DNA from: Chlorella sorokiniana
Taxonomy: Eukaryota; Chlorophyta; Trebouxiophyceae; Chlorellales; Chlorellaceae
Reading direction: 5' to 3'
Assembly (NCBI GenBank): GCA_025917655.1
Contig: CP084616.1
Coordinates: 1,178,001-1,242,000 of the forward strand
DNA length: 64,000 nt
Within the stretch, counting starts at the first letter, position 1; every line of letters begins with the position of its first letter. A program made the translations under genes and the position numbers. This document shows, in pieces, positions 3,044 to 58,680 of this stretch. The notes beneath the pieces were generated by a model. The model saw only the letters and a program-made list of their open reading frames with translations. It was not told the DNA's origin and searched no databases.

Positions 3044-6000
3044 TCATAGGCCCAGCAAAGCGGCGCCCAACAGCGCAAGGACGCCTGCCAGCAGCCGCGG
3101 CGCGTCGGCCGCCGACGAGGGCGCCGGCGCCGGCGCCGGGCCAGACCCCGGCGCAGGCGCGGGCGCAGGGGCTGGGCTGGGCACGGGTGCGGGCTGGGGA
3201 GGGGGCTGCTCTGCTGCGGGTATGGCCAGCGGGTTGGCGGTGAAGAGGTTGCCGGGGTCAAGCGCCGTCTTCACGCTCTGCAGCCAGGGCGCGTTGTCGC
3301 CGTAGTAGCTGGCCAGCGGGTCGGCGCCAACCTGGACGTCCAGGTAGTTCACGTAGGCCGGCTGCACGTGAGTGGGTGTGGGGGAAAGAATGTTGGGGAA
3401 AGAATGTTTGGGGGGGAAGAAGCGAGAGGCAGGGAAGTTGCAACAGGGAGGAGGTGCACCGTGGACAGGCATCCAACAGGCAGTTGCCACGGCGACAAGC
3501 CAGCGCCCCGCTCCCAGGCCCCAGCTGCATCCCCCAGCCCACTGCCCGCGCAGCCCCCTGAAGATAACAACAAGCAGCAGCGAAGCAGCCCCGCACCCGC
3601 TGCGGCGCAAAGTACGGGTCCAGCGCCGCCTGCATGCCCTCGATGATGGGCAGCACTTTATTGGTGTCCACCTCGCGCTCCCACTCGGCCCCGTACTGGA
3701 TGCTGAACAGCGCGCCGCGGTGCACAAAGCCCGTGGCGTTGGAGGGCACCGCCGCCACCGCGCTCTGCGGGGTTTGGACGGGAGAGGGGGAGGGGGGGCG
3801 CGCGCGCCTGAGCAGAAATGACGGGTGTAGGGCGGGGGCAGTGACGCGTTGGGGCGGCTCTCAGCAGCCTGGCTGCCGCTCCGCCGGCACCCCCGCCGCC
3901 GAGCTTCTTTGAGCGCGAGGAAGCTGCCGCGCACCTGCGCCCCCAGCATGTCCAGCTCCACGTAGCCGCCGTACCGCTGGATCTTGGCCTGCCACTCCAT
4001 CATGGTGCGCCAGGCGGCGTCGGGCAGCGGCTCCATGGCGAAGAAGGACTTCAGCTTGAAGTAGACCCTGGGGCATGGCACAGAGGAGGCACGTGAGGGC
4101 GGGGTGGCGGCGCGTGAAGGGGGTGGTTGGGGTGTGGGAGGGGGCGGGTGTGCCATGATGTGACAGCAGATGAGCCGGGCGGCACGAGCTAGGGGCTGCT
4201 GGCTGGCACGAACAGTCCTCTGTGGAAGCAAGGGCGACAGCAGCAAGGGCAGCCTGGCAGGGGCGCTGCGCGAGCGAAGGGGCGCGCGCCGGCAGGCCGC
4301 GCCGACGGCCCCTATTTCCTTAGCGACTGCAGCCAGCCTCTCACCTGTACTGCTTCTCCATCAACGGGATGTCCAGGAGCTGGGCGGGGTCGGTGAGGCC
4401 GTCCATGTCTGGGAAAGGGGCGGGGAGGCGGAGGAGCGGCAGGGTGCACCCGGTAAGTCGACTGTCGGGTCGGGAGACCCTTAAGGAATGCAGCCATGTG
4501 ACCTAAGCGGCGGCGCCTCACATGCCCCCGCCACCACCGAGTCGATCCAGCGCATCTCGGAGAAGGACTCGTCCCGCGTCGCCCAGCTGCCGCCGTACAG
4601 CCCAGCCTCGACGAGCAGCCCCGCGCTTCCCCGCGGGGCCCTGCAGGCAGTCACGCGTGCGACGGGGAAGCCGGGGGGGCAGGCAACTTGAGGAAACCGT
4701 CGTCGCTTGTGGGCCGGCCCTGCACAGGGCTGCCCCAGTCACGCCAAACCGACGCGCGGTTCAAGAGGAGGTGGGCGAGGCGCGCAAGCACGCAGGCGGG
4801 CGACCGGCCCAGTATGTGCGGCGCTGCCTGCGCGGGCCTGCCGCTGTACGGCCGCACCGGGTATGTGCAGGTGACCAGCACCATGCCGGCCTGGATGTTG
4901 AGCTGCAGGCCCAGCGAGGAGTTGCCCACGGGCAGCCACTCGCTCTGCACGTAGTCCAAGAACGCCAGCGCCTGCTCGCGGGCTGCGGTGGGTTTGATAC
5001 AGGGGAGAGAGGGGGGGGCAGGGGGAGGAGCGGGGAGGGAATTGGGGGGTGTTCTGGGGTAGGTGGAAGCGCAGCGGAGAGCTGGGCTGCGTGAGCGGCC
5101 AGCAGGCGGGGAGAGCGCGGCAGGGCAGGCGGGCTCGCAGCTCACCGACGGTGTACTGCGCCACTGTGATCTGCGGCGGTACATCGTACAGCTTGATCGT
5201 GTACTGCGTCACCACGCCTGCGGCATGCACCGGTACGCGCAGGGGCGGCCCAGGGTCAGCACAGCACGGCAAGCGCTGCTCCGTCAAGCTGTTCGATGCT
5301 CCGTCAGCCAGAGGCTCTGCAAGCTGGCCTTCGCGCCGCCCCCGCCCAGCCCAGCAGCCCGGCGCAGCCGTGTGTCGCCAGCTCACCAAAGTTGCCGCCG
5401 CCGCCGCCGCACAGCGCGGCCAGCAGCTCGGGGTTTTGGTCAGGGCTGGCCACCACCAGCCGCCCCTCTGCGTCCACCTGCGGCCAGAGACACGCCGGGA
5501 TGATGAAGCTGCATGGCGCCGGGCGGCTACAGCGGCCCTACGATGGCCGAACGCAACCAGCACTAGCTTGCGCCGCACAAGCGAGAGACAGGCGCGGTCC
5601 CGGCCAGCAGGCTGCCCCTCCGCCTGCTCTCTCCACACACGCATGCTTGCAATGTCACCACCCGCCCCCTGCCCCAACCCCACTGGCTTGCACCACATGA
5701 CAAGGCTCCACCCACCCCCAGCACACACACACATGCACACACACGCCGCCACTCAAAAAAAGCTCGCACAGCGCCCGCCTCCCCACCCTCGCCGCCCTGC
5801 ACTACCCACCAGCTCCGCCTGCAGCAGCTGGTCGCAGCCGAGGAGGCCGTAGGGGCGGGAAAGGGGGCCGATGCCTCCGCCCTGCAGGAAGCCGCCGACG
5901 CCCACGGGGGGCAGGTGCCGCCCACCGCAGCCTTGGCGCCCGCGGTCTGGTTGAACACCCAATAGTAAAGCTGCGCGGTGGGGGGGGAGGGGGTTGGGGT

Positions 6001-9842: not shown

Positions 9843-12800
9843 ATGCCGGGCGCACGGTGGCCCCTCACCGAGCCGCTGCCCGCCAACGGTGCAGAGCCTG
9901 CCCCAGGTGCCGCCCACGCCGCCAATGGCGCTGCCAACGGCACCGCCCCGCCAACCAAACCCGTCAAGGTGCACTCGGCGGCGTCAGAGCAGGACCTCAT
10001 CACACTGCGCAACATCCTGGCTGCGGCGCAGGCAGCGCAGGCGAAGTACGCCGTCTTCACCCAGGAGCAGGTGGGGTGGGGCCAGCTGCAAAGGCCCGCC
10101 TGCCGGAGGGGCCTGGCCTGGCATGGTGGCCGGCATAGACCAAGGCGGCACCGCCCCCAGCACCCAGGCCACCGCCTGCCGCTCCCTCACCCGCACAGGT
10201 GGACGAGATTTTCGTGGCGGCAGCGCTGGCGGCCAACCAGGCGCGCCTGCCGCTTGCCAAGATGGCGGTGGAGGAGACGCGCATGGGGCTCGTTGAGGAC
10301 AAGGTGGGGCAGAGCTGGCAGGGACGAAGACAGAGGAAGGCTGAACCTCATCACACCGCCCGCAAGGCCAGACAGCGGGAGCTGCTGCCTGCAGGACGCT
10401 GCAAGGGCGGCACTGGAGCCGCCCGCCTGGAGTTGCTGTCCGCCCGCGGAGACGTGGCGCCGCTCACGCCTCCCCCCGCCTCCCTGCGCGCCTGCAGGTC
10501 ACCAAGAACCATTTCGCCTCCGAGTTTGTGTGCAACAAGTACCGCTTCGAGAAGACGTGCGACGTGATCGAGACGGACGCCAGCGGCGGCGTCACCAAGA
10601 TTGCCGAGCCCGTGGGCGTGATTGCAGGCGAGGCAGGCGGCTCGCTTGCCGCTCCTCGGCCTCGGTCGCTGCGCTGCCCTGCCGCAGGGAGCAGCCAGCC
10701 GCCCGTGCAGCGGAGCTGCTGTGTCCAGTGGCATCGCAGCTGTGCCCTCTTGTGCCTTACGCCTGACGCTTGGACGGCCCGCACTGCTGCCCCGCCCAGG
10801 CGTGGTGCCCACCACCAACCCCACCTCCACCGCCATCTTCAAGTCCCTGCTGGCCCTGAAGACGCGCAACGCCCTGGTGCTGTGCCCGCACCCGCGCGCC
10901 AAGCGCTGCACCGTCGAGGCGGCGCGCATCGTGGCGGAGGCGGCGGTCAGGGCGGGCGCCCCCACATCATCTCCTGGATCGAGGAGCCCTCCATGTGCAT
11001 CAGCCAGGCCCTCATGCAGTCCCCGGAGATATCGCTCATCCTGGCCACCGGCGGGCCCCAGATGGTGCGTGCCGCCTACTCCTCCGGCCACCCCGCCCTG
11101 GGGGTGGGCGCCGGCAACACCCCGGCAGGTGGGCGCCTACAGCCTGGGCTCCTGCCACGCGTGCTGTGCCTGCCCCCGCCGCCGTTGCCTGCGCGAATGG
11201 AAGCTGGGCCATCAACCGTGTCGTCGGCCTCACGCCACCTGTCAGCCTGCCCCTCTCCCCGGGCAGTCGTGGACGAGACCGCCGACATCCAGATGGCTGT
11301 GTCCTCCATCCTCGTGTCCAAGGCAAGCTGCGCCTCGCGCCGCTCGCTCCGCCGCCGCCCCTTCCCTGCTGCCCCGCCTCTGCACGCCGGTGCTGATGCC
11401 GCCGCAACAACCTGGCCCACCCCCGCCGTCCACCCATGTCAGTTTGAATCCCCGCCTTCTGCCACCCTCAAGCCCAGCCCACTGTCTTGGCAACCCCCCT
11501 TTCCCCGCAACACCCGCCCACTCACTGTCTTGGTGCCCCCCTCTCCCCCGCAACCCACTCCCACGCAGACCTTTGACAACGGCGTCATCTGCGCCTCCGA
11601 GCAGAGCGTGGTGGTGGTGGACGCCGTGTACGAGGCGGTGCGCGCGGAGATGGTGCGCCGCGGCTGCTACTTCTTGAAGGACGAAGAGGAGAAGGACAAG
11701 GTGGGCGCTGCCACACGTCGTCGCTGGGCATGCCCAGCAGCTTGAAGATGTGCAGCCTGGCTCCGCCGCGGAGCCAGGGGCGCCGCGGCGCCGGGGGAGA
11801 CGTACGCAGCCTTGAGCTGGAACAGAGCTTGCAGCCTGCGGGGCTGGCAATGGCAGTAGCATCGGGCAACGGTGCCGACCAGCACTCGCCTCCTGTCCAT
11901 GAGCTGCAGCCGCCCCGCACATGCAGCGCAACGCCAGCATGGCAACCCCCCATCTTATAGCGCAGGTGCGGGCCAAGCTGATAGTGGATGGCCGGCTGAA
12001 CGCGGACGTGGTGGGCCAGTCTGCGGTGAAGCTGGCGGAGCTGTTTGGGCTGCAGGTGCCGGAGTGGACGCGTGTGCTGGTGGGAGAGGTGAGCGGTGTG
12101 TGTGTGTGTATGCGTGGCGGGGGGGGCGATTGGTGCGCGCGCGCTCCAGGACCACGGTGTGCGGCTGCCTCTGACCTGGCCTGCCACGCCCCCTCCCAGG
12201 TGGAGGGCATCGGCAAGCACGAGCCGCTGAGCGAGGAGAAGCTGTGCCCGCTGCTGGCCATGTACCGCGCCGCCGACTTTGAGGACGCGGTGCAGAAGGC
12301 CGACCGCCTCGTCATGCTGTTCGGCGCGGGGCACACCAGGTGAAGCGGGAAGAGGCGCTTCTGACCTTCCTTGGCGCACGGCGCTGCATCCCGTGCGTTT
12401 CCGGGCGTCCCATGCCTCTGCCTTGCGCTTGTCGGGCCGCACCCGACTCCTGCTGCCATCCCCCCGTCCACCACCCGCAGCGTGCTGTACACGGCGCCGC
12501 TCAACCGCGAGCGCGTGCGCCGCTTCACGCACGCCATCAAGACGGTTCGCGTGCTGGTCAACATGCCCGCCTCCCAGGGCGCCATCGGCGACGTCTACAA
12601 CTTCCGCCTGGACCCCTCCCTCACGCTGGGCTGCGGCACCTGGGGCTCCACCTCCGTCTCCAACAGTGAGCGCCCCCACCCCGCGGCCCCTCTCCCCGCC
12701 AGCTGGCCTGGCTGGCCGCCACGGCCCTGGCGCGCCCGGGCTGGGTGGGGGCCTGGCCCCTTTGTTGGACCTGCCCCCTACCCCACCGACGATGGGCTGC

Positions 12801-15800
12801 GGGGCCCGTTCCTGCCTCGCCCCCTCCCGCAGACGTGGGCCCGTCCCACCTGCTGAACATCAAGAGCGGCATCGAGCGGCGGGACAACATGCTGTGGTTC
12901 CGCGTGCCCCCAAGGTGTACTTCAAGGGCGGCTGCCTGGAGCCGGCGCTGCGCGAGCTGCGCGGCAAGCGCCGAGCCTTCATCGTCACGGGTGGGCGGGG
13001 CGGGGCGGCCCCGGAGGGCCGCGGCGGGCGGGCCCACCCGCGCACGGCGCGCCCCTCCGCACCCGCTCCCTCGCTCCCCCCGTCTGCTGCCCCCTCGCCT
13101 GCCGCCCACCCCACGCCTTCCCCGCTGCAGACAAGCCGCTGTTCGACCTGGGCTACGCCGATCAGGTGACACGCATCCTGGACGCCGTCAACATCCAGCA
13201 CCAGGTGGGGCCGCGGAGCGTGTGTGTGTGTGTGTGTGTGGTGGTGGGTGTGGGGGTGGGGGGCAACATCCAGCACCAGGTGGGGCCACGGAGCGTGTGT
13301 GTGTTTTGGGGGGGGCAGCACCAGGTGGGGCTCAAAGTATGACTGTGTGTGGGGGGAGGGGGAGGGGAGGGTGGCGCCGCACGCCGCACACGGTGCTCAA
13401 GGGTGGTCTGCTGGGTGGCCGTCAGGCCAGGGCGTGCAGCCCTGGCCGGGAGCTGCTTGCTGGCCACCCAGGAGGGCCCCTGACTCCCTCCCTGATGACC
13501 CCCCCCACAAAACACCGCACACAGGTGTTCTACCGCGTGGCTCCAGACCCCACCCTGGCCTGCATTCGAGAGGGGCTGGCCGAGATGGCCGAGTTCAGGC
13601 CCGACGTCGTCGTGGCCCTGGGCGGCGGCAGCCCCATGGACGCCGCCAAGGTCATGTGGTGAGCGGGGGAGGTGTGTGTGTGTGTGTGTGTGGTGTGGTG
13701 AGGGGGCATGGGGGAGCCATCCGTGTTTCCGTGGCTTTGCTTGTCCGCGCAGCAGGTCGCGAAGCGTGCAGGGACCCTGGTGCCCCCCCGGCAGTTGGCT
13801 CGGGCAGTGCGCCCCGTCGCTGTTGCTGGTTCACCGCCCCCTCGTGTGCGTGCTCCATCCCGCCAGGCTGATGTACGAGGTGCCCGACATACGCTTCGAG
13901 TCGCTGGCGGTGCGCTTCATGGACATACGAAAGGTGCAGGGGGGCAGAGGGGTGGGCGGCAACATAAGGTGCAGGGGGGGCAAAGGGGTGGGCGGCGGCG
14001 AGCAGTCCGTGCAGGGGGTATGGCCTTGCTGTGCGGCGGGGAGATGAGGCAGGGGGCATGTTTCAGGGTGTTTTAGATGTTTTCACGATGCCCCCCTGCT
14101 TGCTTCACCCCGTGCTTGCAGCGTGTGTACGAGGTGCCTGAGCTGGGGAAGAAGGCAGTCATGGTGTGCATCCCCACCACCAGCGGCACTGGCTCCGAGG
14201 TCACCCCCTTTGCAGGTGGGCTGCAAGCGCGGCGGGCCGGCCGCCCCTGCCGCCACTACAGCCCTGCCCCACCATGCAACACAAGGTGGGGGCTGTTCTA
14301 AATGCCGTGCCCGCCTCCGCTCGTGCGCAGTGGTGACCGATGAGGCCACCGGCATCAAGTACCCTCTGGCTGACTACGCGCTCACCCCCAACGTGGTGGG
14401 TTGCTGCCGTTGTGCGTCGCCTGGGTCCCGCGCGTCAGACACGACGCTCAGATCGGCACAGCTCTGCGCCCCCTGGCCTCCTTTGCATGACAGCTGCCTC
14501 CTCTACGCAGCCAGGGCCCGCGCTGATTTCACCACAGGCAGCTTGCTCTGGATGCTTGGATGCTGGCTCCTCACCTCCTCACCTCCTCACCTCCTCTGCC
14601 CCCTCCCCCAACGCACCCACCCGAGCGCAGGCCATCGTGGACCCGCAGCTGGTGGTGGACATGCCCCGCGGGCTGACCGCCTTTGGCGGCATCGACGCCC
14701 TGGTCCACGCGCTGGAGAGCTACGTCTCCATCATGAGCACCGACTTCACGCGAGGCCTGTCCCGCGAGGCAACCTCCCTCCTCTTCAAGCACCTGCCCCG
14801 CGCCTACAGGTGACGCGCCGGGGGGGCAGGCAAAAGCAGGGCAGCGGGGAAGCGAGTGCCTTGCCCGCTTTCTGGAGGGTCGGCGGCAGCCAAGTAAGGA
14901 CGGGGTGGTGTTGTAGAGCTTCCGCCGCCCAAGGCCTCGGTCCCCCTCCCGCTGCTGCAGCAACGGCGCTCACGACCTGGAGGCGAGGGAGCGGGTGCAC
15001 AGCGCCGCCACCATCGCGGGCATGGCCTTTGCCAACGCCTTCCTTGGCATCTGCCATTCCGTGAGCCCTGCTGCACCCGTTCCCAATGCATTGCGGCCCG
15101 ATCACGGCCAGACTCCCTCAGCCTCCCGCCTGCCTCTGTCGAAACCAGCAGCACTGGTGGGAGCCAGGGGACGCGGTCCGGCTGTCGCCCTCCCTGGCCC
15201 CCGACAAGAACCCCTCCTCCCCGTCGCCCCCACAGCTGGCCCACAAGCTCGGCTCCGCCTTCCATGTGCCCCACGGCCTGGCCAACGCCGCCCTCATCTC
15301 CCACGTCATCCGCTACAACGCCACCGACAGGCCCCTCAAGCAGGCCGCCTTCCCGCAGTACCAGTACCCGCAGGCGTGTGTCTGGAGGGAGGGCTGTGCG
15401 CGCGCGTGTGCACGTTTCGTTCCTGGGGCGGCGGCGCTGGTGTGTTCACCCGGCCAGGGCGCAAAGGCTTGGGGGCTGCCGTCTGCCTTCCTCCGGCCGG
15501 CTGCGATTCTGGACCAGGGTGCAGCTCGTGGCTCCCAGCCAACCGGGCCCGCCCCTCCCAACGCACCCTGCCTGCCCAGGCCAAGGGGCGGTACGCTGAG
15601 CTGAGCGACATGCTGGGCCTGGGGGCGCCTCCCCCGACGACAAGGTCGTCCGCCTGATCGAGGCGGTGGAGGAGCTCAAGCGCCGCTGCGACATCCCGGT
15701 GGGCGGCGGGGTGTGTGTTGTGTGGTGGTGGGGGTACGTCTTCCTGTGGTGTGTGGTGTATGTGGGACATGAGGATTTATCCGCAAGCAAGCAGCCAGTG

Positions 15801-16507
15801 CCCCTGCACCACCTGCCTGCACCGTGCCACAGCGTAGCCGCCGAAACGCCGGCACCTGCAGGGATGCGTGGCTGTTTGCCCTGCGCCCCCTCCTCATTCG
15901 GCTCACAAGCGCCTGCCCCCGGCCCCCTGGCCGCACCGCAGCCGACCATCCGCGACATTGTGGGCGCCGACCGCGAGGGCGAGTACATGGCGGCGCTGGA
16001 CAGCATGGCGGAGAACGCGTTTGACGACCAGTGCACGGGGGCCAACCCACGCTACCCGCTCATCGCTGACCTCAGGCAGATCCTCAAGGTGTGCGCCGCC
16101 GCCTGTCCGCCCTCGAAAGTGGCGCTGTCGAGTCCTGGGTTGGGGTAGCCGCAGGCAAACAGCGGCCCAACTGTCGACAGCTTTTTAGCGGCCGGGCGCT
16201 TCCTCGCTTTGGCACGCCTGCTGCGCGCCACCGGCTGCCCGCCGACGTGCCAGGAATCCCCCTGCCCCCGCAGGACGCGTGGGAGGCGCCCATCCTGCCC
16301 AAGAGCGGCCTGCGCGCCCTGCGCAAGTTCCCCACCGCCCTCAACTCAGAGATGGCCCAGCTGGTGGTCGAGGAGGCGGCCCGCGCCCGCACCCCGCCCG
16401 CCTCGCCCCCGGGAACCGCCTTCACCGCGCCCCTCATCATGTCGCCGCGTGCCGGCCAGGCGGGGCAGCGCCCTGGCGCAGAAGCCATGCCAGCCTCGCA
16501 CCCTTGA
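9843..16507 (+). CDS. ADHE: bifunctional aldehyde/alcohol dehydrogenase AdhE
   Basis: Converts acetyl-CoA to acetaldehyde and then ethanol with NADH, as in algal dark anaerobic fermentation. I trace 21 exons: 9843-10070, 10199-10303, 10498-10627, 10800-11128, 11267-11322, 11569-11700, 11966-12088, 12200-12339, 12481-12665, 12833-12990, 13131-13204, 13525-13658, 13867-13933, 14122-14215, 14331-14395, 14631-14809, 14961-15060, 15236-15373, 15580-15698, 15942-16088, 16274-16507. The aldehyde dehydrogenase half carries the catalytic cysteine in [13 protein letters not shown]. The iron-type alcohol dehydrogenase half carries [25 protein letters not shown] and [10 protein letters not shown] (metal-binding His/Asp). 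Three one-base losses interrupt the frame (10959-10963, 12907-12911, 15621-15625). Adding one base at each gives 979 residues with all phases correct, against about 890 in bacteria. The extra length is an Ala/Pro-rich N-terminus, possibly part of an organelle-targeting sequence with an upstream exon. Confidence 0.93.
10628..10799 (+). other. GC-AG intron in AdhE
   Basis: Exon 3 ends GCA G and is followed by gcgagg, not GT. The next exon begins GC GTG GTG CCC after cccag. The joined protein reads [14 protein letters not shown], exactly the expected AdhE sequence, so the junction is well fixed. Further GC donors are inferred at 11323 and 15374. Confidence 0.75.
13188..13335 (+). repeat. tandem copies of an AdhE exon end plus donor
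   Basis: The last bases of exon 11 with its donor and a GT-rich stretch recur in the following intron. Copies start at about 13188, at 13264 (nearly identical, followed again by gcggagcg-type sequence and GT repeats), and a shorter one at about 13315 (cagcaccaggtgggg). Confidence 0.7.
13931..13996 (+). repeat. tandem duplication spanning an AdhE donor site
   Basis: Two nearly identical units of about 30 bases (13931-13960 and 13966-13996) each begin aaggtgcagggggg and end gtgggcggc. The first includes the exon 13 end and its donor; the second lies wholly in the intron. Confidence 0.7.
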
Positions 16508-22173: not shown

Positions 22174-24592
22174 TCAGCTCGGCTCGCCAGCAAGCTGCTG
22201 CTCCTGCTCCCGCTGCTGCGAAAGCTGCACCGGCTGCTGCTGCTGCAGCGGCGCCTTGGGCGGCAGGGCGGCCGCTGCAGCGCGCACGCTGCAGTCGCCC
22301 GGCCGCCGCCCGCCCGCCCGCCCGCCGCGGGGCCGCAGAAGCCGTCCTGGGCAGCGCGGCGGCCACGGCGGGCGAGTTGCAGCCCGCCACGGCGGCGCCG
22401 CTGCCGCCGTTGCAGGCAGGGGCGCTCCGGGGTCGTGCCGCGCGTCAGCCGCGATGGCCCAGCCCGTGCAGGATCGCACGGCGTGCCAGCGGTTGGCGTC
22501 GGTGCGGCCCCAGGCCACCAGGCGGTTGAGGAAGGCGGCCACCTCGGCGGGGTCCCGCAGCGTCCACCGCCCCGCGGTGGGCTTGGCCTTGGTGGACACA
22601 AGGATGCCGCCGCCCAGCCGCTGCTTCGCCAGCACTGCGGGGGCGGGGCGGCGGTGCGTTTCGGTGCGGCGGGGATGCGCCTGTGCGCGCTGGTGTGTGT
22701 GCAACTGTGTTGTGGCGGGGCCAGGGTGGCAGAGGGTGGCTGCAAGCACGGCCGGACGCGGGCCCGAGTCGCGCGCCCGCCAGCCGCCGCGCCCCGCGCG
22801 CCGGCGAGGGGCCAGCAAGGCACACGCTGCCAGCCACGCCAGCCTGCCCCCTGGACGCGCCCAGCCAGCAGCAAGCAGCCGGCGCCAGCAGCCCTCGCCA
22901 AGCAGCGTGCAGCGAGGCCATTCAGGTGCTAGGGTGCCCCCCCCCCCAGAAAACAACAACCACACCCACACATACAAGAGCCGCCCACCGCTGAATGCGT
23001 CCTCGTCAGTGCGGTCGTCCCGAGGTACAGGCAGTACACGCTGTCCGGGTCGTCCAGCCCCAGCATGGCCAGCAGGTGCGTCAGCGCCGCCCCCTTGTCC
23101 CAGTCCACCTGCGGCCGAACCTCCAGCACCTTGCGGCCGCGCGTGATGCGCAGCTCGGGGTGAGCCGCCGCCACGCCCTCCACCACTCCCACCACTGCGG
23201 GGGAGGGGTGGGGTGGGGGTAGCAGGGAGGGGTTGGCCGGTGGGGCACGCGCGTCATGCGATGGATGAGTGGGTGGTGGGGAGGGGCGGAGGGGACCTGG
23301 CGGGTGCCAGCCTGCAGGCGGTGGCAGCACCCACAGCTGTCCCTCCCTCTGCGGCGACATGGGCGTCGCCGCATGGCAGCGCGCAGGAGCGCCCCCCCCC
23401 CCAGCCGCCCCCAGCCGCCTACCCGCGGGGTAGTGCTCGGGCGCGCAGTTGCGGAAGTGCACCGACACACAGAACTTGTTGTGCTCCACGGCGGCACCCG
23501 GGATCGCGGCCACCCCCGCCTCCAGCTCGCCGTGCACGGCGTCCACCAGCGGCGCATAGGCTGCCGCGGGCTGGAAGGCGAGGGCGGAGGCGGCGGCCCC
23601 GCCGTCGCTGCCGTCGTCGCCGTCTGCTGTGCTGTGCACGCTGGGTCCGACGATGTCCATGCCGTGGCTGCCCGCGTAGTAGAGCTCCCGCAGGCGCACA
23701 AACTGCTGCACCTTCTCGCGGCCGCGCCCGAGATGACGGCGGTGGGGAAGAGCTGCGCCACGCGGCGCACCGCCTCCCGCGCCGCCTCCGACATCAGCGC
23801 CATGTCCGGGTTGGACACAATGGGGGTCAGCGTGCCTGCAGGGGGCTAACGAGGAGGGGTGAAGGGCGCGGTGCGAGGGGTGCACGGGGGCATCCCGGGC
23901 GTCGCACGCACATCAGCAACGAGAGCGAGGGGGTGCGCGGGAGCCGCTGCTGCCCTTCTGGCTGCCGCACACCCCGGCTCCACGGCTGCGGCGGCGTTTG
24001 GCAACAAGCCCTCGCAGGCATTGCGAGGGCAACAGCGCTGCGGCCGGCAGCTTCTGCACCCGCGCGGTGGGCTGCCCCGCGCACCGTCGTAATCCAGGAA
24101 CACAGCCACCAACTTGCCCGCGGCGCTCTGCGCTATGGCGTCGAAGTTCAGCAGTGCGCAGGGGTGCTCATCCTGCGGCCAGTCAAGGCGGAGGAACTAG
24201 GGTCACTTGGGTGCAGCCGGCATGCCAGCGGGTGCCCGCCCGATGGTGCATGCGCAGTGCCGCGTGCGGGCATGCAGCGTCCGCTTCCAGCGCAGCAGGG
24301 CAGGCAAGAGCGCGTAACATCTCTTCTGACAGCAGTGTGAGCAGAAGATCGCTCACACGCTGGTGTTCAACGCGCAGGCCTGTCGAGGCGAGGGCGGCAG
24401 GAGCGGGCGTCTGCTGCAGCTCACCCTCCAGCTGTCATACTCGCTCGCAGACTCCACAGATGCGCCACTGCCGTCCCTGCTGAGGGTTCCGTTGCCGGGA
24501 AAGACGGCGGCTTCGCTCAAGGGCTCGAAAGAGACTCGAGATACAAGCGAGGACTGCCGCTGCGCGCCCTGCTCTCCCGCCATGGCTCCCAA
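22174..24592 (-). CDS. TPP: trehalose-6-phosphate phosphatase
   Basis: Dephosphorylates trehalose 6-phosphate to trehalose; HAD superfamily, plant-type stand-alone phosphatase with no synthase domain. Five exons, in transcript order: 24592-24425, 24172-24085, 23835-23423, 23194-22989, 22634-22174. Exon 1 ends SEYDSWR and joins DEHPCALLNF, like the plant YDxW...EHPSAL entry to the domain. Motif I is FLDYDGTLTPIV, split by intron 2 and containing the nucleophile Asp. Later come the substrate-site segment around HNKFCVSVHFRNC, RGRKVLEVRP, WDKGAAL, and the HAD motif GDDRTDEDAF near 23000-23020. Two one-base losses break the frame: near 23721-23733 (ISGRGREK) and 23019-23021 (just before DDRTDEDAF). 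Adding one base at each gives 445 residues with all phases and the stop in agreement. The last 90 or so residues are Ala/Pro/Gln-rich and not conserved. Confidence 0.9.
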
Positions 24593-37400: not shown

Positions 37401-40400
37401 TTTCTTCATCCTGCCCGCCCCCACCCCCACCCCGCCCCCCCCCCCCCCCGCCCACCAGGAGCGCCAGCTGCTGCGTGGAGGGCGAGCGAGCAAAGAGGCG
37501 CCCGCCGTGCACGCTGCCCGCCCCCGCGGCCGTACGCCGCGACGCGCGCCAGCAGCCCGCCGCGCCCAAACGACTCGCCGCCGTGGCTGCTGCCGCCGGC
37601 GGAGGAGTCGATGGAGGGGGCGGGGCGGGGCGGGCCAGCTCAGCGATGCTGGGCAGGCAGGGGAGGGGGAGGGGGAGGTTAAGAGGGCTGGGCGAGAGAG
37701 TGTGGGTGGGGGTGGGGGGAGAGGGGGGTGCTTGGTGGGGTGGGGGGGGGGGGGGGCGGCGACGCATTAGCGAGGTTTGTCCGATGCCATGCATGGGAGG
37801 CTTCACAGAGCTCGCGTGCGCGTGGCCGCCGCCCCCCCACACCCCCGGGTGCAGGGAGACCCCTCCTGTTTGAATCAGACCCTCCCACACCCGCCCCCAC
37901 ATACCACACAAACCCTCCTGCAGGCCACCACCCCCGGCTCACTTGATGGAGGCGCTGCGGGGGCCGAGCTCGGAAGAGCCCAGTGCGCCGGGGAGCCAAT
38001 CTGGAGTGATTGGAGGGGAAGGGGGGACGGGGCGGGACATGCAAGGCGCTGAGCCAAAGCCTGGGCGATTGGCCCGCAGAGAGCGGCGCGGCAGCGGTGG
38101 GGCAGCGGCGGCGACAGCTCAGCGACCGTGCGGCAGCGGCGGCAGGCAGCGAGCACGCCAGGGAGGGGCCGGACACCCCGGCGCCCACCATGGCCGCAAA
38201 GCCGCGCGTCGCGCCCTCGCCGCTGTCCGGGCTCATGGCGAACAGCGTGTCGGCGGGCGCGGCGCCGCCGCCCGCCAGCGGCGACGACGACGGCTCGCTG
38301 CCGTCGCTGCTGGGCTGCTGCGCCCGCTGACCCTGCTGCGCCGCCAGGTAGGCGCCCACCTCCCGGGCCGGGCGTGCACCGTGGGAGACAGCGCCGGCGC
38401 CATCTTCAGCAGCTCCTGATGAGGAGGAAAGAAGCAGGGGGGAGGGAGGGAGGGAGGCACCAAGGGCGGCTATGTTGGCAGCCGTGTTGAGGGCGGGCAA
38501 GGGGCGGGCGGGCGTGCGGGCTGCCCACACCAGCGCAGCAGGTCTGCACCGCCTAACAAGCCAAAAGGGGAGACCCTGCTTGCCCCCGCCTGTCCAGCAC
38601 AGCCGCTTCCACCCCCAACCCTCTGCTCGATGCTGTGCCGCGCCCGCCACATCAGCGTGCCGCCTGCCGTTCAGGGCGTCGTCCCCCATGCACGCACGCA
38701 CGCACGCACACACACGCGGGCAGGCAGGCGGCAGCGGAGGGGCGCCCCACCTGAGCGATGAGCTCCAGGATGGTGCGGCGCAGCAGGTTGCCCTGCGCAA
38801 AGCGCTGGATGCGCTGCACCACGGTCGAGGATATGGGGCGGGCGCGGGCCTGGTGGAAAGCGGGGGACAGCCAGGGGTGGCGCAGCGCCTCCTTGGCGCT
38901 CGGCCGCGCAGCGTGGTCCTGCGCGGGACGCAAAAGGGAGGGCGGGCGGGCCGCGGCTGCGTTTGCGCGCAGTCACGACGCGGCGCGGCGGGGGCAGCAT
39001 GCACGATGAGCCTGTTTGGCGCCCGGGCAGTGGCACCACTGCAATAGACAGCTGGCAGCCTGGAACCAGCGGCAGCGTTGCTGCCGATGCCCCGTGTTGC
39101 AGGTTCTTTTCTACAGCACCCCCACACCTTTCCCAACTCAACCCACCCCCATGCCACCCAAGAATTGCAGCGCCACGCACAAGAGCCCCCCTTTTCCTCC
39201 CCGTCGCCGTGCCTTGTTCAGCAGCGTGCGCACAAAGTCCTTGGCCTCCTCAGACACCTCCTTCCAAGCGCTGCGTCGAAACGACGGCTCCTCCCCCAGG
39301 ATGCCCTTCCAGATCACTGCGGGGGAATAAGTTGGGGGTGGGGGGTGGGGGGGGGGGGGGGGGGGGGACAGCGAGGGAGCGTCGGGAGGAAAGGAGGGAT
39401 GGGGTCGGCTGCTGCCACGGCCGCCACAGCAGCAGGGGCGGGCAGCGGCGCGGGGCAGGCGTGCCTGACAGGGCGGGGGCGGTGGGGTTGCGCACGTCGT
39501 CAAAGGGCAGGTAGCCTGCGGGGCGGGGTGGGGTGGGCGGTTGAGGGCTTGGCAGGGCGTTGAGACGAGGTGCAGGAGGTAAGAGGCGAAGGAGGCACGG
39601 CAAGCTGTCACGCTGCAAGCTTGCACGGTAGGGGTGCCGTGCAGGCGGGCAGGCTCCGCAGCGCACCCGACAGCAGCTGGTAGGCCATCACGCCCGCCGC
39701 CCACACGTCCGAGGCGGGGTAGGTCTGGGAGGAAAGCGTCTCGGGCGCCATGAACCTGCACAGATGCACGTGGGGTGCAGGGGCAGCCGCACGCGCCTCA
39801 CCGCGCTGTTGCTGCGGGTGCGCAACACATGCTGCTGCTGCCGCAAGGGCGCACTTGGCTGCCGCACGCCAAGCCCTGGGTGCCCGCGCGTCTCCTGCCT
39901 CAGCAACCCTGCCTCGTCACTCCCACGGCAGCCTGGGGGCGACTTCCCCCGAAACATACAAACACCAGTCCCTGCCCCCCCCCCCCCCCTCCCCACACCC
40001 ACCCACCCACCAAGGTGTGCCTTCCAGCCCCAGGTCGGTGCGGGGCAGCTTCTCGGGGTCAAAGAACACGGCCAGACCGAAGTCGATGGCCTTGAGGGGG
40101 AGTCGTCCTCCTGCGTCAGCAGCATGAAGTTGCCTGCAGCAGGTGCGGGGGACAAAAGGCACCCGAGTGACTGGCGCTGTGGCGCCCACCAGGCCAGGGG
40201 CCCAGCGTCCACCAGGCTAGGGGGCGCAGCTGCAATGCAAGGGAGCGCGCCGGCCTTGAAAGCAAGAGGGCAAGGCCGGGCGCATGGCGGGCGTCCAAGC
40301 CATCAGCGCGGTCGGCGGCAGGGCGCGCACCCGGCTTGACGTCGCGGTGCAGGATGCGGTGGGAGTGGCACTGCGCCAGGGTGTGCAGCACGCTGCGCAT

Positions 40401-44591: not shown

Positions 44592-47500
44592 TCACACCAT
44601 TGGGTGCAATGTTGCAGGGTGTGGGGGTTCATATGAGAGAGCCGCCCGCCGGCCAGGCCGTGCCTGCGCTCGGCTGCGGCGGCTGCTGCGGTTGCTGAGG
44701 CTGCGGCCATTGCAAGGAGCTGCCCCCAGAGGTGTCGCGCCGCCGCTGGTTGTGCTGCTGCCCAGCGAGAAGGGGTCAAACACTGCTGCAGCGCCGCCGT
44801 TGGGAGCAGCCGCTGGGGCTGGCCGCTGCAAGCTGCTGCCTTGCGCGCCACTGCTGCCCCCACCCCCAGCTGCAGCCCAGCAAAAGGGTCCGCAAGCGCT
44901 GCAGAGCCGCCGCCGGAGCTGCTTGCCGCCAGGCCGCCGAACGAGCTGCTGCCGAGCGGCGACTGTGCGGTTGGGCGCATCCCCGCGGCGCCGCCACCGA
45001 TGTTGCTGCCGCCCCCAAAGGCTGCCCAGCTCTGCTGCTGCTGGCCGGGAGCTGCCACGGAGCCAATCGGCTTGGCAGACCCCACCCTGCTGCCAGCCAG
45101 CCCAAAGGCGCCGCTGCTGGCAGGAGGCGCGGGGAGCCGCGGCGCCGCAACCGCCGACTGCAGCTGCAGCCCGGCCAGCGGGTCAGCGGTGCTGGCGGCC
45201 GCCGAGGGCCGGCTGGAGCTGCCAAGTCCGCTGCTGGGCCCCACCGCTGTGGCAGCCAGCCAGTCCGCGGGCGGCGGTGGGGCCGCCCCTGACCGCCCGT
45301 CAGCCCGTTGGAGGTTGGCGAAGCTGCGGTCGCGGCCTGCGGCGATCCGGCGGCGGCGCCCGGCCCCCCTCCACCGCCGCCAGCACGTCGCGCACCGTTT
45401 TGACCGCCGTGGCAAACTGGTGGGAGGAGAGGGTGGGGGCCACCAGCAGCGGCGCCAGCGCGGGCAGCACGCGCTCGGCGGCCAAGCGGGGCCGTGCTGG
45501 CGGGCCAGCGCCGCTCCCAGCGCCAGCACACACATCACGGTGGGGGCCGACTTGTCCACGGCGCTGACCTGGCGGGGGGGGCCGCAACCGGGGAGCTTCA
45601 CGCTGCAGGGCGGGGCGGCGTGCAGCCAGGCACCAACAGCGCAGCTGGCTGCAGGCTGGCTGCGGAGCTGGCTCCCCATGGCGGGTCTGGGGAGGCGCCG
45701 GCGGGAGGCAGCCAAGCGCGATGCCGCAGGCTCGGCCTCCTGCGGGGGCGGCGGCGGCGCGGCCCGCCCACCTTGGCCGCCGTCGCCAGCATCGCCTCCG
45801 CCTCGCCGCCGTCCATGCGCTGCGCCAGGCGGCTCATCGCCGCAAACGCGCTCACCCGCACCGAGGCTGCGGGCAGGAGGGCGCAGGGCGGGCAGCCGGG
45901 ATCCTGGTTGGCTGGACTCTGGGGAGCGCCGCGGCCGCAGAACACATGTAACAAGTCGGGCAGCGGCGTGCCACCGCCCGTGCATGCGGCCCCCACACCT
46001 CCCCATGGCTGGTCCAGCCACCGCCCCGGCCAGCGCAGCAGCAGCAAGCAGGACCTCCCCCTTCCTTCCACGCTCCCAGGCTCCCCACCCGAGGTGGTGG
46101 CCAGGCACAGAGCGTGCACAGCGGGCAGCACCGCCGCCTTGAGCCCCTGGTAGTCCAGGGAGTCGGCCATGCCCGCCACGCGCTTCAGCATCTCCTCCTG
46201 GGCCCTCGAGTCGCCTGCGGGCAGTAAGGAGAGGGAGCGTGCGGTGAGCGGAAGAAGGCAGGGGAGCGGCGGCAGGGGCTACGTGAGCGTGCGTGCGTGA
46301 GTGTGAGGGGGCGACAGGGACGGCAGCGCACAACAGCAGCAAGCCTGCGGGTCTCCCTGGAGTTTGTGAATCTGGTGAAGGCAGGCAGGCGGCGCAGCAC
46401 GCGGGCGCGCTCACCGTGCTCCGCGGCTCGCACCAGCAGCGCGGGGATGACCTGCGCGGCCACCGCGGGCGGCATGCAGCCCTGCAGCAGCTCCGCGTGC
46501 TGCACCAGCAGCAGCAGCGTCTCGCCCGCCGCGCTCGCCAGCAGCGGCCTGCGGGGGAAGAAAGCGCGGCCCCGGGCGGAATCGAAGCAGCGACGGGTGC
46601 CTCGGTGGCTGCACGCGCCCCGGGCATCCGCCCGCCGGCCCACCCCACCTCGCCCCCGCTGCTCCCTCGGCCATCCGCGTGAGCACACATGCCGCCCAGC
46701 CGGCGCGCTTTCCCCCTCCAGCCCTGGTGGCTGGGCGATCGGCGCGGCGCAGCGCGGCGCCGCACCTGAGTGCGGGCAGCGAGGCGTCCGCAAACTCGGC
46801 AGGGTCCTGCTGTCGCACGATGCGCAGCACGATGGGCAGCAGCACGGGCTGCAGGCTGACGTCGCGCAGCTCCTGCAGCAGCGGCGGCAGCACCTGCAGG
46901 GTGCAGGGACTCGGGGGTGGGTGAAAGGGGAGAGTTAAGGTGGAGGTATGAGGGCGTGTGTGTGCGTGTGTGTGTGGAGGGGGCGCGGGCGCGCGGCGAG
47001 AACACAAACGAGCGTGCAACTCGCAACAACTTTGGGTTACCGCGCGCCCCCTGCCGGCAGGGCTCTACCCTGCTCTACCCCCAACGGGTGGGCTGGCCTC
47101 CTTGGCCGCAGGGCGGCGCAGCGCCAGGGCAGGGGGCGCACCAGGTAGCGCAGCACGCGGGAGTCGAACTGGGCGCAGAGGGAGGGCAGGTCCTGCAGGA
47201 AGGCCGCCTTCTGCGCCGCCTCCCGCTGAAGCATGGTGTCCAGGAACTGGGGGGAAAGGGGAGAGGGGGGGCGACAGCGCTTCAGGTGAGCGTGATGGGG
47301 CGCCGGATGTGCAGCGGGGTGGGTGGGGTGGGGTGGGTGGGTGGGTGGGTGGGTGCGGGGTGGGTGGGGGGGCGCGCAAGCGCAGCACGCAAGGCTGGGG
47401 GCAGAATTGCCGAGCCGCTGAGGGACAGCTTGGTGGGAGGGGGGCTGCCCAAGGGGCTATGGGCGAGGCTGCAGCTGCCCAGCCCGCTGACCCCACCTCG

Positions 47501-49987
47501 CCTCCCGCTCTGTCAGAACCTCAGCACCTGCGTGCGTACCCTCACCAACCAGCACACACGCACATGCACCCACACGCCAGTGCCAGAGCGCCCGCTGGCT
47601 CACCTTGAGTGCACGCAGCAGCACATCCGACTGGAAGTACTGGCAGCCGGCAAAGGCGGCGGCGGGGGCCGCGCGCCAGCCACCGGCGCCGCCATCGACC
47701 GCAGCGTGGGCTCCAGCGCGGGCGGCACCCCTGCAGGGGCAAGCCGGGCGAGCAGGGCGGGGCTGAGGGGCGGAGCGAGGGCGGGGAGCTCCCTCCCACC
47801 CCGCAGCCGCCAGCCACGGGCGGTGCGGGTGGGCCGCTGCCGTCTGCCGCACGCGGGCCGTGCCTGGCCAGGCCTCTGCAAACCCAGCCCGCCAGCGCCC
47901 GGCCGAACCCCACCACAAAGAACCGGCAAACACTGCTTCATACACGGAGCTGCAGGAGGAGGAGGGCTGGGGCCTGCCCTCCAATCGGCCCCCCACACAC
48001 ACAACACACACTCACACACCTCCTCAACCCCCCCCAACACACACCCACCCGTCATGTCCACCAGGGTCAGCGAGGCCACCCGGCTCTCGTACTCAGCCAG
48101 CCGCGCCCCCACCGGCAGCAGCTGGCGCCGCGCCAGCAGCTCAAAGGCCAGGGCAGCCAGGGAGAAGACGTCGGCGGCGCCGGTGGCGGGCGGCTGCGCG
48201 CCGCGGGCCACCAGCTCGGGCGCCACGTAGGCCAGCGGCGGCTGCAGGGGGCGACGGCCGAGCGGGAAGTTGGGGGTGGTGGGCGATTGCAGGTGCGGAT
48301 AAGTGGTGGTGGCGGTGATGGGTGGGGGGTGGGGGTGGGCAGAGAAGTGGTGGTGGTGGTGGTGGTGGGTGTGGGGGGGTGTGGGTGTGTGTGGGGGGGC
48401 ATCCGCGCGCGACAGCGGAGACATTAAGCGCCAGAAGGCAGCGCCGCAGGAAGCCAGCATGGGTCCGCGCTGGCAGCCTACACGCTGCCCTGCTGCTGCG
48501 CCTCCCCTCCGCCTGCTTTCTGCGGCAGCTGGGCACCCCGGGTCTTCATGTCACCCGGCCCCTTCCCCCACCGGCTGTGAGGGCCCCTCGCCTTGCATGC
48601 ACGAGCCCCAGCCCCTGGCCGCCCGGCCCTACCTGAGTCAGGCTCTGCAGCAGCTGCGGGTGGGGGTCTGAGTAGTCAAAGCCGCGGCCACCGTCCGTCC
48701 GGTACTCCAGCGGGGCCGAGAAGCCAAAGCCGGCCAGCTTCCAGGCGCCTGCGAGGCTTGGGGGCGGCGTGTGAGGCAGGGCAAGGCATACAGCAAGCCC
48801 GGCAACGTGCGGCGCAGGGCGCCCGCCCGTCGGCCGCGGCAGCATCCACAGGTGGCTTCACTCCATGGCTGTTCGCCAACAAACAAAAACGCAAAGGTCG
48901 TACCCCAAACCCGCTTTGGAAGAGCCCCCACCACCCTTGCTGCGGGCTGAGCGCCGCCCGCCACCCACCAGCAGCGGTGATGACGACGGCGGCGGGGCAG
49001 ATGCCTCGGTGCACCAGCCCCGCTTCCGCATGCAGGAAATGGAGCCCATCCGCCACCTGCAGCAGCCCGTGCTTGATCTCCAGCTCTGCGGGGTACGGGC
49101 GGCGTGGTGTGTGTGTGTGGGTGGGGGGGGGGGGATGAAGCAGGGTCGGGCAGCAGGCGACTCCACACAGGCGGGGGTGGGGGTTGGGGAGAATGCGGTA
49201 TGCCAGTCTATTACACACGCAGAACAATGCCCACCCGAGAGGTGCAGGCTGCGCCGCTCCTGTGCCAGGGCGGGTGGCAGCGCCGCGGGGCCGCCGCCGC
49301 CCAGCAGGTCAGCCAGGCTGTTGGCGAGCGGCTCGGTGATGAAGACCAGCTGCGTGCGCGACTCCTCCAGCGGCGCAATCAGGCGCAGCACGCAGGGGTG
49401 CTTCAGCCGCGCCAGGGCCTGCACGTCGTGGCGGCACTGCTCCAGCAGCACGTCCAGGCGCCGCTGCGAGGGCGCGCGTGAGCCGCCGCCGCCGCCGCCG
49501 TGCCCGCCGCCCTCGCCGCTCTGAGCGAGCTCTTGCTTGCTGAGGATCCAGGCGCTGACCACCGGGTGTGGCGAACCTGCTGGCGAGGGGTTGGAGGGTG
49601 CAAACGGGGCAGTCTGAACGCCCAGAAGCATGCAGCCGGTGAGATGGACGGCCACTGCAGCTGCACGCAGGGTCCCTGGGAGGGACTGTGTGGCGGTTGC
49701 CAGCGGCGGCAGCAGGAAGGTGTCCGCCAGCCGCGATCAGTGCACCGCAGGCAGATGATCGGGCAGAGCCACTCACCCTCCTTTTTGCTCCTCGCCGTGT
49801 ACACCCGCCAAAGGGCCTGCCCCGACCCGGCGCTGGCAACCTGCGGGCCAAGGCTGTAATCAAGAAGACATTGAGCTCCAAGGGCCTCCTGCTGCACGAA
49901 CTTGGAGGCGACCTTGGCACTCTGCACGGTGGCCTGAGTGAAAGTGCTGACGGCACTGAGCAGCTGCTCCTTGAAACCTCCTCTCAT
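44592..49987 (-). CDS. SCYL2-like pseudokinase (SCY1 family)
   Basis: SCY1-like kinase-fold protein, known in other eukaryotes for clathrin-linked membrane traffic between Golgi and endosomes. The ATG at 49987 gives MRGGFKEQLLSAVSTF, then SGQALWRVYTARSKKEG and VVSAWILSKQEL. The kinase fold follows: CRHDVQALARLKHPCVLRL, QLVFITEPLANSLADLL, LLQVADGLHFLHAEAGLVHR, AWKLAGFGFS, YVAPELVARG, DVFSLAALAFELLARR. Catalytic Asp is missing (HRG, not HRD) and DFG reads GFG, so it is a pseudokinase. HEAT-like helical repeats follow (47230-45400: FLDTMLQREAAQKAAFLQDL, VLPPLLQELRDVSLQPVLLP, VLPALAPLLVAPTLSSHQFA). The C-terminus is Ser/Gly/Ala/Gln-rich with DPFAGLQLG and FDPFSLGS, resembling trafficking-adaptor DPF motifs. 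The end is ambiguous: stops at 44592 or, in a Gln/Pro-rich frame, 44629. Frame breaks at 47664-47668 and 45488-45491 each need one base. Confidence 0.82.
47316..47356. repeat. GGGT repeat in an SCYL2-like intron
   Basis: Repeated gggt units on the plus strand within an intron of the minus-strand gene; could form a G-quadruplex. Confidence 0.6.
48347..48370. repeat. GGT microsatellite in an SCYL2-like intron
   Basis: Perfect GGT triplet repeats followed by further G/T-rich sequence, in an intron just before the exon encoding YVAPELVARG. Confidence 0.7.
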
Positions 49988-51666: not shown

Positions 51667-53437
51667 ATGCATCGCCCCACCCTGAACCTGGCCTTGATGG
51701 CCCTACTGGCCCTGACCGGGCTGGCGGCGCTGCCCTCCACGGCTGCGGCGCGCACCGGCCGCGCCCTGCGCCAGACCCCGAGGAGCAGGCTCTGCTGCAG
51801 GCCCAGATCGACGCGCAGAACCGGCTGAACGCCGAGGGCCAGGCCAAGATCGCGGAGCAGGTTGCCCGCGAGCAGGAGAAGGCTGCCAAGGCCGCCGCCA
51901 GGCAGCAGGCGCGCGAGGCCGAGCAGCTGGCTGAGCAGCAGCAGGAGCTGGCTGAGCTGGCGGCCCGGGAGAACGCCGCCAGGGTGGAGCAGGAGGCCCT
52001 GGAGGAGCAGGCACGCCAGGCACGCAGGGAGGCCAAGAAGGCGGCCAAGGAAGCCAAGAGGAAGGAGCGCGAGGCGGAGCGTGAGGCGGAGAAGGCGGTG
52101 GCTGAGGCGCGGCGCCAGGCGGAGAAGGCACGCCAGGAGTCCCAGGAGGCGGAGGAGGAGCAGCAGCGGCGCCAGGCCGACGCTGAAGCCGAGGTGCAGG
52201 CCGCCAGCTATTCCGACAACGACAGCGATGACAGCAACAATGACAACGGTGGCGACAGCGACAGTGGCGACAACGACAGCGACAGTGGCAACAATGACAA
52301 CGGTGGCGACAGCGACAGCGGCGACGACGACAGCGACCGTGGCAACAGCGGTGGTGGCAACAACAGTGGCGGGAACGGCGACGCTGGCCCGATCTGGGGC
52401 CTGGAAACCGGCAATGGCGGCGGCGGAGGTCCTACCTGCCGGGCCACCTATCACTGTGAGTGGCCTGTGCCTGCAAGCCTCCCACGCCGCTGCGGCCTGC
52501 CTTTACATGCTGTCTGCGGCCTGCCTTTACATGCTGTCCCAACCCCGCCCCCAGCCCACCCCAACCTCCCCTGGGCCGCGCCCAACCCCCACCCATCTGC
52601 AGACTATGCCCCCAACTATGAGACGTCCTCCCTCTACTGTGCCGACCAGTTCAACAAGTTCCTGGTGAGGCTGAGGCTGGGAAGGGATGAAAGGCTCTGC
52701 GCTGCCGCAAGCACTCAGCCTGGCCCAGCCCTGCCTTGGGGGTGCCTGTCGCCCGTCCTTGCAAGCACCTGACGCCCCGCCGCCCCCCCTTCCTCCCGCT
52801 CTTCTTCCTGTGCGCAGCCCGTGGGCCCCGACCACTGGTTGCTGCAGTACCCCTGGACTGCGTACTGCAACGACATGGGGCTGGGCCCCATGACCCAGGA
52901 CAAGTGCGGCAAGTGGTAAGTCCTGGCGGCCAGCTGGTTTGGGCGGGATACCTTGCTTCACTTCACGCAATGCTCCCCCTGAATGCTTCCTCTGGTCAGG
53001 CAAGGGCCAGTCTCATGCTGCAGACACACACACACGCACATCCCGCCGACGCTGAATCCACCCCCTTCCCTTCCAACCCCTTCCCTCCCTCCCTGCAGCC
53101 TCAAGGTCACCAACACCGCCACCGGCCAGTCGGTGAAGATGCGTGTGGTGGACATGTGTGGCCAGGGCTGCGTGGACATGGACCCACTGGGCTTCAACGC
53201 CATCGGTGAGCGCCGAGCCCAGCCGACTGCTTGCCGCGGCTGCGCCTGGGGGCCGGGGGGGGGGCGGGGGCATCGCAGCCTGCGGCCCACCACCTCCCAA
53301 CCGCTCCACGCAGGGCCATGCACCTGCAGCATGCCTGCGCTCACCCTCCTCTCCCCCTCTCCCCTGACAAAATCGCAGACGGAAACGGTCAGGGCAAGGC
53401 CGACGGAAGCATGAACGTGCGCCTGGAGTGGTGCTGA
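51667..53437 (+). CDS. secreted coiled-coil protein with C-terminal barwin domain
   Basis: Five exons: 51667-52455, 52603-52664, 52818-52915, 53099-53205, 53379-53437. With one base added at the C run 51776-51779 all phases agree and the product has 371 residues. It begins with a signal peptide (LALMALLALTGLAALPSTAA). A long charged helix of about 140 residues follows, rich in Ala/Glu/Gln/Arg/Lys (QIDAQNRLNAEGQAKIAEQV), a predicted coiled coil. Then comes a flexible Asp/Ser/Asn/Gly stretch (52204-52370). The C-terminal 110 residues match the barwin/PR-4 fold: YPWTAYCN, CGKCLKVTNTATGQSV, RVVDMCGQGCVDMDPLGFNA, and the final NVRLEWC, with six or more cysteines. Barwin domains bind or cleave wall polysaccharides or nucleic acid in plants. 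The fusion to a coiled coil is unusual. Likely located at the wall or outside the cell. Confidence 0.85.
52204..52370 (+). repeat. coding repeat of Asp/Ser/Asn/Gly units
   Basis: Imperfect tandem repeats built from gacaacggtggcgacagc-like units encode acidic DSGDNDS-type segments between the coiled coil and the barwin domain. Confidence 0.75.
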
Positions 53438-57700: not shown

Positions 57701-58680
57701 GCTGCCGCCCCATACCAACCCACAGCCTCGCCCCAATCGCCCCTCCTCCTCTGCCATGCAGGCCAATGGCGGGGCGGTCCCCGGCAGCCCGCGGGTCGAC
57801 GGCGGGGGCCGCCGCGTGGCCAAGCTGGCCTGCGTGCACCCGACACGCCGCTGACGGCGGCGCTGGGCCTGCTGCTGGAGGCGGGGGTGTCCTGCCTGCC
57901 AGTGGTGGACCCCCAGGGCGCCCTGCTGGACGTGTATGCGCGCGCAGACATCACCACGCTGGCCAAGGTGGGTGGGGGTGAGGGTGGTGAAAGGGGGGGC
58001 GGCAAATTGTTTGTGGGTGGGTGCGGGTTGCAGGGGAATGCAGGGGAATGGGGGCCTCGCGGGTGCATTTAGGTGGGGTGCACCGCGGCGGCAGCTGCGG
58101 CGGCGGCAGATTGGGCCTGGCTGGGAGCAGCAGGGGGCTGCGCAGGCCGGCGTGCTGGTGGGCGGCAGCGCCGCTGGCCCAGGCGGTACCGCTGCGACGC
58201 TTCAGCGCTGCTGGTGGGCTTCAGCGTTGATTAGCCCCCACCCCCACCCCCTCCTCCATCCCACCCGCTACCTACCTTAGAGCGCCAACAGCCACACACA
58301 TGCGTGCACACCTCCCCCTCCCCCTGCAGGGCAACGCGTACGCTCGGCTGCAGTTTGAGGATGTCACTGTGGGGCAGGCGCTGGCGCTGTCGGGGCGCCC
58401 CCGCCTCCCCAGGTGGCCCCCATGGGCGGCTCGGCCCCCTGCACTGGGGCACCTCGCCCGCGGCTCCACCGGCAGCCTGGCGGGCGGGGAGGGCGGCGGC
58501 GGGGGCGGCGGCGGCGGGCGGCACCGCGTGCACGTGTGCACCCCGCAGGACGCGCTGCGCAGCGTGGTGGAGCGCCTGTCGGTGCCGGGGGTGCGCCGCC
58601 TGGTGGTGGTGGACGGGGACAGCCGCCGCGTGGAGGGCATCGTCAGCCTGTCAGACGTGGCGGCCTTCCTGCTGCTGTGA
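54718..58680 (+). CDS. SnRK1/AMPK beta-gamma (SNF4-type) regulatory subunit
   Basis: Energy-sensing subunit of the SnRK1 kinase of the plant-specific beta-gamma kind: an N-terminal glycogen/starch-binding CBM48 joined to four CBS repeats. Exon 1 is 54718-54771 ([18 protein letters not shown]); exon 2 is 54929-55032 ([20 protein letters not shown]); exon 3 starts at 55151 ([20 protein letters not shown]), the classic CBM48 core. CBS 1 covers [37 protein letters not shown] and SASDFIRML (56300-56670). CBS 2 covers [20 protein letters not shown] (56960-57100). CBS 3 covers [20 protein letters not shown] then [11 protein letters not shown] (57840-57968). CBS 4 covers [28 protein letters not shown] and [13 protein letters not shown], stop at 58680. 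Gly/Ala/Gln-rich insertions lie between the CBM and CBS 1, and around 57300-57800. The frame break at 57839-57841 needs one C. Probable partners are a SnRK1 alpha kinase and a beta subunit, in cytosol or nucleus. Confidence 0.88.
56232..56268. repeat. ACCCCC microsatellite in an intron
   Basis: Six-base ACCCCC units repeated about six times directly upstream of the exon starting with the [10 protein letters not shown] segment, close to its acceptor site. Confidence 0.8.

Follow-up and report, generated by a model that had tools for sequence, protein, structure and literature searches.

Loss of single bases is a described error of long-read assemblies, and the statements that follow refer to portions of the reports cited. 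For nanopore data, a ceiling of 5 bp on homopolymers is described for all callers except Scrappie, and one assembly contained 28,791 deletions against 3,900 insertions (PMC5889714); in a bacterial nanopore assembly, deletion errors peaked after runs of four to five bases (PMC12007338). In a high-GC bacterium, PacBio-derived assemblies carried G/C homopolymers of 4-10 bp that were shortened by 1 bp, and the same report states that ONT underestimates runs longer than four to five bases (PMC11649196). The opposite sign has been described after nanopore polishing, where homopolymers were more often too long (PMC7500977). The broken reading frames that we describe here in the nuclear DNA of a Chlorella resemble the nanopore deletion errors of PMC5889714 and PMC12007338 in their bias towards loss, their association with runs, a possible capping near five bases and the resulting gene fragmentation. 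They differ in that the nanopore errors, in those portions, favour A/T over G/C runs, a comparison for which long A/T coding runs are too few in our sample. The PacBio shortening of PMC11649196 is alike in that G/C runs of 4-10 bp are one base short, and one PacBio-only assembly there differed through deletions alone. The counts given there are different: three genomes, each of about 2.57 Mb, had 3, 5 and 8 such sites, whereas we obtained tens of calls in 244 kb; 80 differences are listed for one HGAP3 assembly. The error type is already known, and new biology is unnecessary. We hold, with high confidence, that the breaks belong to the assembly and not to the alga, bases having been dropped during basecalling or consensus building. 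The assembly looks as if it was made from long reads, either nanopore or PacBio presumably fitting as the platform, and one base, sometimes more, would have been dropped at many places. These drops would lie mostly in G/C runs of a probable true length of five to seven and, less often, at doublets within very GC-rich sequence; the missing bases presumably exist in the living genome.

The window, a stretch of 64,000 nucleotides, comprises bases 1,178,001-1,242,000 of contig C11 in an assembly of 15 contigs and 38.8 Mb. Each of the 13 large contigs starts with CCCTAAA/TTTAGGG repeats, which are also found at the end of C1, and TTTAGGG occurs close to the end of C2. C14 (77 kb) and C15 (118 kb), AT-rich in their first 10 kb, look like organelle genomes, judging by size and composition. 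The telomere repeats were considered as a test of known truth and set aside: most units close to the ends are perfect CCCTAAA, and since the deeper ones are degenerate, losses there are indistinguishable from natural variants. No tRNA and no Rfam family was found in the window at the gathering threshold. Frames were followed with a hidden Markov gene model that combines codon usage, splice sites and introns that keep the phase, with an equal penalty for a lost and a gained base. It was trained unsupervised on the window and 18 nuclear loci of 10 kb (244 kb), the sites of the initial annotation being withheld and the organelle loci L046 and L047 (the first 10 kb of C14 and C15) excluded. The model uses GC at about 9% of its splice donors, under a penalty for GC that was chosen by hand.

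Over the 244 kb, the model called 40 losses and 14 gains (sign test, p=5e-4), unpruned totals in which calls in misread introns and one loss call at the edge of L050 are kept. The window alone accounted for 17 losses and 6 gains. Among calls with an LLR of at least 5, losses outnumbered gains 14 to 3, and the top-scoring single call overall was a gain, in L044. It should be kept in mind that a two-base loss would be scored by the model as a gain. When clean sequence was simulated by resampling the codons of the predicted genes, three replicates yielded 5 loss and 9 gain calls, and planted errors were recovered equally well for both signs (52 of 88 losses, 52 of 88 gains, a sensitivity of about 59%). 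The excess of losses is therefore not a bias of the method, as false calls are few and power is equal for both signs. Outside the reach of this simulation, misread introns yield false calls of both signs (window position 12701 in AdhE, L049 6432 and L049 7243, the likely true protein being visible for the two in L049), and at least two gain calls, at 12701 and L049 7243, fall in introns misread as exons. Spread over the 56.5 kb that the model predicts as coding, the 40 loss calls amount to about one per 1.4 kb.

Eight of the 14 gene models in the window carry a loss call, and the oxidase is a ninth through a site supported by a homologue. The proposal that nearly all conserved genes are hit was therefore too strong: no frameshift was called in the polysaccharide deacetylase, in the MYND gene or in the partial model that closes the window (g4, g12, g13), and models g0 and g8 carry gain calls only. 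One of the gains lies at 42906 (LLR 4.3), within an exon (42843-43108) that had been singled out as a possible exception.

An independent measure was obtained by counting the bases between the conserved residues that flank each break and comparing them with solved homologues (Table 1). Ten sites were counted in this way, seven in the window (5906, 10959, 12907, 15621, 23019, 23721 and 40096) and three on C1 and C2. All ten are deficits; nine are short by exactly one base, and only 10959 is short by four. As expected of a long-read deletion artefact, losses thus lie far above gains, both in the calls (40 against 14) and in the counts, where ten of ten sites have the same sign. Seven of the ten lie at runs of five or six, the exceptions being 23019, 23721 and the HSP70 on C1. 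The evidence is not equally firm at each site. At 23019 the model call is weak, so that the site depends on the homologue, and the identity of the lost base is ambiguous. The softest counted site is 23721, which depends on 5gvx and on a gap placed by the aligner. The oxidase site at 5906 is absent from the model calls, the model having skipped this stretch as an intron; 9p1o is one alignment among the 77 distinct sequences matched by the oxidase.

Table 1. Sites of broken reading frame in the window and on contigs C1 and C2, with the gene that spans three of them; "bases" gives those present against those needed or found in the homologue.
Feature	Position	Strand	Local sequence	Bases	Call and basis
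FAD/BBE-type oxidase, one base lost	5906..5911	-	six-base run	8 vs 9	alignment to 9p1o
AdhE gene	9843..16507	+			21 exons; 979 aa once three unknown bases are inserted
AdhE, exon 4 break	10959..10963	+	C5 run	20 vs 24	model loss call; homologue
AdhE, one base lost	12907..12911	+	C5 run	11 vs 12	model call
AdhE, one base lost	15621..15625	+	G5 run	14 vs 15	model call
Trehalose-phosphate phosphatase, one base lost in L-G-D-D motif	23019..23021	-	run of three	2 vs 3	LLR 1.5
Trehalose-phosphate phosphatase, one base lost after S-G	23721..23733	-	no clear run	14 vs 15	LLR 5.3; 5gvx
Gene model g6, extra missing-base call	28601..28602	+	GGGG		LLR 7.1; model only
Gene model g6 (initially annotated as sialidase-like), missing base	33483..33487	+	C5 run		LLR 4.8
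Kinase gene model, extra missing-base call	35897..35902	-	five-base run		LLR 7.2; model only
Kinase gene model, extra missing-base call	36877..36882	-	five-base run		LLR 2.9; model only
Kinase gene, 3' of kinase domain, weak missing-base call	38362..38370	-	CCCGGGCCGGG		LLR 2.0; model only
CDPK-like kinase, one base lost before P-L-K	40096..40100	-	five-base run	17 vs 18	LLR 3.1
SCYL2-like gene (name from the initial annotation), missing base	45483..45491	-	four-base run		LLR 7.7
SCYL2-like gene, candidate frame change before Y-F motif	47664..47668	-	five-base run		reading by eye only
Barwin-domain gene, missing base near N terminus	51776..51779	+	C4 run		LLR 8.5
CBS-domain gene (initially annotated as SnRK1), one base lost	57839..57841	+	CCC		LLR 6.1
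Hexose transporter, C2	L049:6169		C5 run	2 vs 3	605-bit alignment to STP10
HSP70, C2, motif G-I-P-P-A-P-R-G-V			C5 run	14 vs 15	
DnaK-like HSP70, C1			no clear run	5 vs 6	

The initial annotation had listed 14 one-base losses in short G/C runs, and twelve of them found support. Model loss calls fell within 13 nt of eleven (10959, 12907, 15621, 23019, 23721, 33483, 38362, 40096, 45488, 51776 and 57839), and the twelfth is 5906, from its solved homologue. The other two received none from the tools: at 26229..26233, a C5 run, there is neither a gene model nor a loss call, and at 47664 the model made no call and a Pfam scan of a hand-joined, imperfect query matched nothing. As to the losses sharing one sign, their dominance over gains was borne out, and the bias proved not to be absolute, gains being called too. 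The size of one base each holds at nine of the ten counted sites and fails at 10959. The link to short G/C runs holds for ten of the 14 (runs of 4-6); 23019, 38362 and 57839 are runs of three, and 23721 has no clear run. Pfam had matches in some of these genes. The CBS match crosses the gap at 57839, where the gap residue was located separately, the Barwin domain itself was identified in the gene affected at 51776, and a kinase domain was detected in the SCYL2-like gene; in g6, no Pfam family was found at E 0.001.

The frameshifts could be an illusion if exon boundaries had been misplaced, whether by eye or by the model. The calls of both signs that fall in misread introns (12701, and 6432 and 7243 of L049) are errors of this kind. 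At eight of the ten counted places, however, the alignment with the homologue crosses the site without a gap (5906, 12907, 15621, 23019, 40096, L049:6169 and both HSP70s), which contradicts a misplaced boundary; a one-residue gap adjoins 10959 and 23721. The HSP70 on C2, for instance, aligns gapless across 109 residues with HSP70A of entry 7n6g. We therefore regard misplaced boundaries as a very improbable account of the breaks.

The losses are also concentrated at homopolymers, as a long-read deletion artefact would predict. Of the 40 losses, 13 have a G/C run of at least five within 12 nt, compared with 7.9% of 4,191 exon codons drawn at random (p=7e-6) and with only 1 of the 14 gains. Re-reading or adding one base of such a run would equal the missing base in its effect, so that the 13 losses beside five-base runs could also be understood if the shorter runs were real and decoded by -1 ribosomal frameshifting or by slippage of RNA polymerase on G/C runs. 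Against this, the predicted coding sequence contains 121 exact five-base G/C runs that are read in frame, and slippage would wreck far more genes than it rescued, barring a hidden signal. The signal that programmed frameshifting or slippage would need beside a slippery run, missing from the unshifted ones, was not found: C and G occur on the coding strand in similar proportions among the 13 shifted and the 121 unshifted runs, and downstream folding is alike (mean -20.8 vs -21.4 kcal/mol, p=0.60, a comparison of 13 with 121 runs that has low power). Moreover, no clear run on which slippage could occur accompanies the losses at 23721 and in the C1 HSP70, and the density of called losses, about one in every 1.4 kb of sequence predicted as coding, also speaks against slippage. 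Decoding of real shorter runs is highly improbable, and so is its widest form, in which a large part of the alga's genes would be decoded by a -1 slippage that acts generally at G/C-rich sites, on the ribosome or in transcription.

The length spectrum of the runs is less telling than their position. In coding sequence, G/C runs of 4, 5 and 6 numbered 404, 133 and 5, compared with 402, 130 and 35 expected from independent codons. In noncoding sequence, runs of 4 to 7 numbered 1258, 569, 76 and 27, compared with 1400, 453, 137 and 46 from an order-3 chain, and the successive ratios (4/3, 5/4, 6/5 and 7/6 of 0.31, 0.45, 0.13 and 0.36) reveal a pile-up at five. The whole genome contains 50,629 five-, 5,972 six- and 1,685 seven-base G/C runs with A/T flanks; its A/T runs with G/C flanks number 10,088 of five and 1,732 of six, a 6/5 ratio of 0.17 compared with 0.12 for G/C. 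The hole at length six was considered as a fingerprint of capped homopolymers and withdrawn, as control sequences show similar 6/5 ratios: 0.115 in two Streptomyces plasmid stretches (100 kb) and 0.118 in phage phiC31, compared with 0.076 in the alga sample and 0.157 in the window. We take these control records to be Sanger sequence. Exact five- and six-base runs did not differ between the alga and Streptomyces (p=1.0), and since the Streptomyces plasmids show the same drop, the fall from five to six may be natural and is not diagnostic, above all in coding DNA. The excess of five- over four-base runs relative to the Streptomyces plasmid stretches is significant (p=7e-7), base composition and coding density being different between the two. 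The noncoding pile-up at five gives weak support to an artefact. In the two organelle loci L046 and L047 taken together, A/T runs drop sharply past seven (55 of seven and 9 of eight bases); in AT-rich organelle DNA, this drop may correspond to what is seen in the G/C runs.

Without added bases, translation of the AdhE gene ends after 318 residues; when an N is inserted at each of its three breaks, it runs for 979 residues to its stop, with no other stop, and the initial description of a 21-exon gene of this length was exact. The protein aligns with its homologue along about 840 residues. At 10959, the count suggests a deficit of four bases, or of one base plus one codon; should four be missing at this C5 run, the true run could be of nine rather than six. 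Three of the 20 AdhE introns start with GC instead of GT (10628, 11323 and 15374). That the broken frames mark real pseudogenes decaying through one-base deletions is highly improbable, because AdhE, the gene in which other decay or an intact second copy was looked for, has neither (all 17 matches of a 692-residue query against the assembly lie at this one locus) and because HSP70s and a hexose transporter, which are not expected to be dead, are among the broken genes.

Altogether, a bias of assembly or basecalling, as the initial annotation had proposed, is the best-supported reading, given the excess of losses in otherwise intact, codon-biased genes, the enrichment at five-base runs and the recurrence on C1 and C2. 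The frames are broken, the sign is biased, the breaks are linked to five-base runs, and they are present on C1, C2 and C11. Against dropped bases stand the gains, which make up 14 of the 54 calls, a shift of the opposite class in an HSP70-like gene on C3, and some losses outside runs (23721 and the C1 HSP70). Automatic annotation would cut the affected genes short, and for a considerable fraction of genes, any gene set, orthology assignment or claim of gene loss that draws on this assembly would be wrong. From 40 calls in 56.5 kb and a sensitivity of about 59%, the rate is about one lost base per kb of coding sequence, or somewhat lower when misread introns are subtracted. The high contiguity of the assembly and the telomere repeats at its contig ends mask these losses.

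Some further sites lie outside the window. The glycosyltransferase at L050:299, presumably PIG-A-like, had no solved homologue at 1e-10; Pfam glycosyltransferase families span its gap, and it was left out of the ten counted sites. On C3 (G000:C3:1270819-1271083), two overlapping HSP70 matches have frames offset in the opposite class, with one base gained or two lost. Near position 8469 of L045, in a gene that we read as cyclase-like, an extra TG lies within a GTGTG stretch. The model counted this site as a loss, which places it within the 40 and outside the ten counted by homology, and it may instead be a two-base gain of TG.
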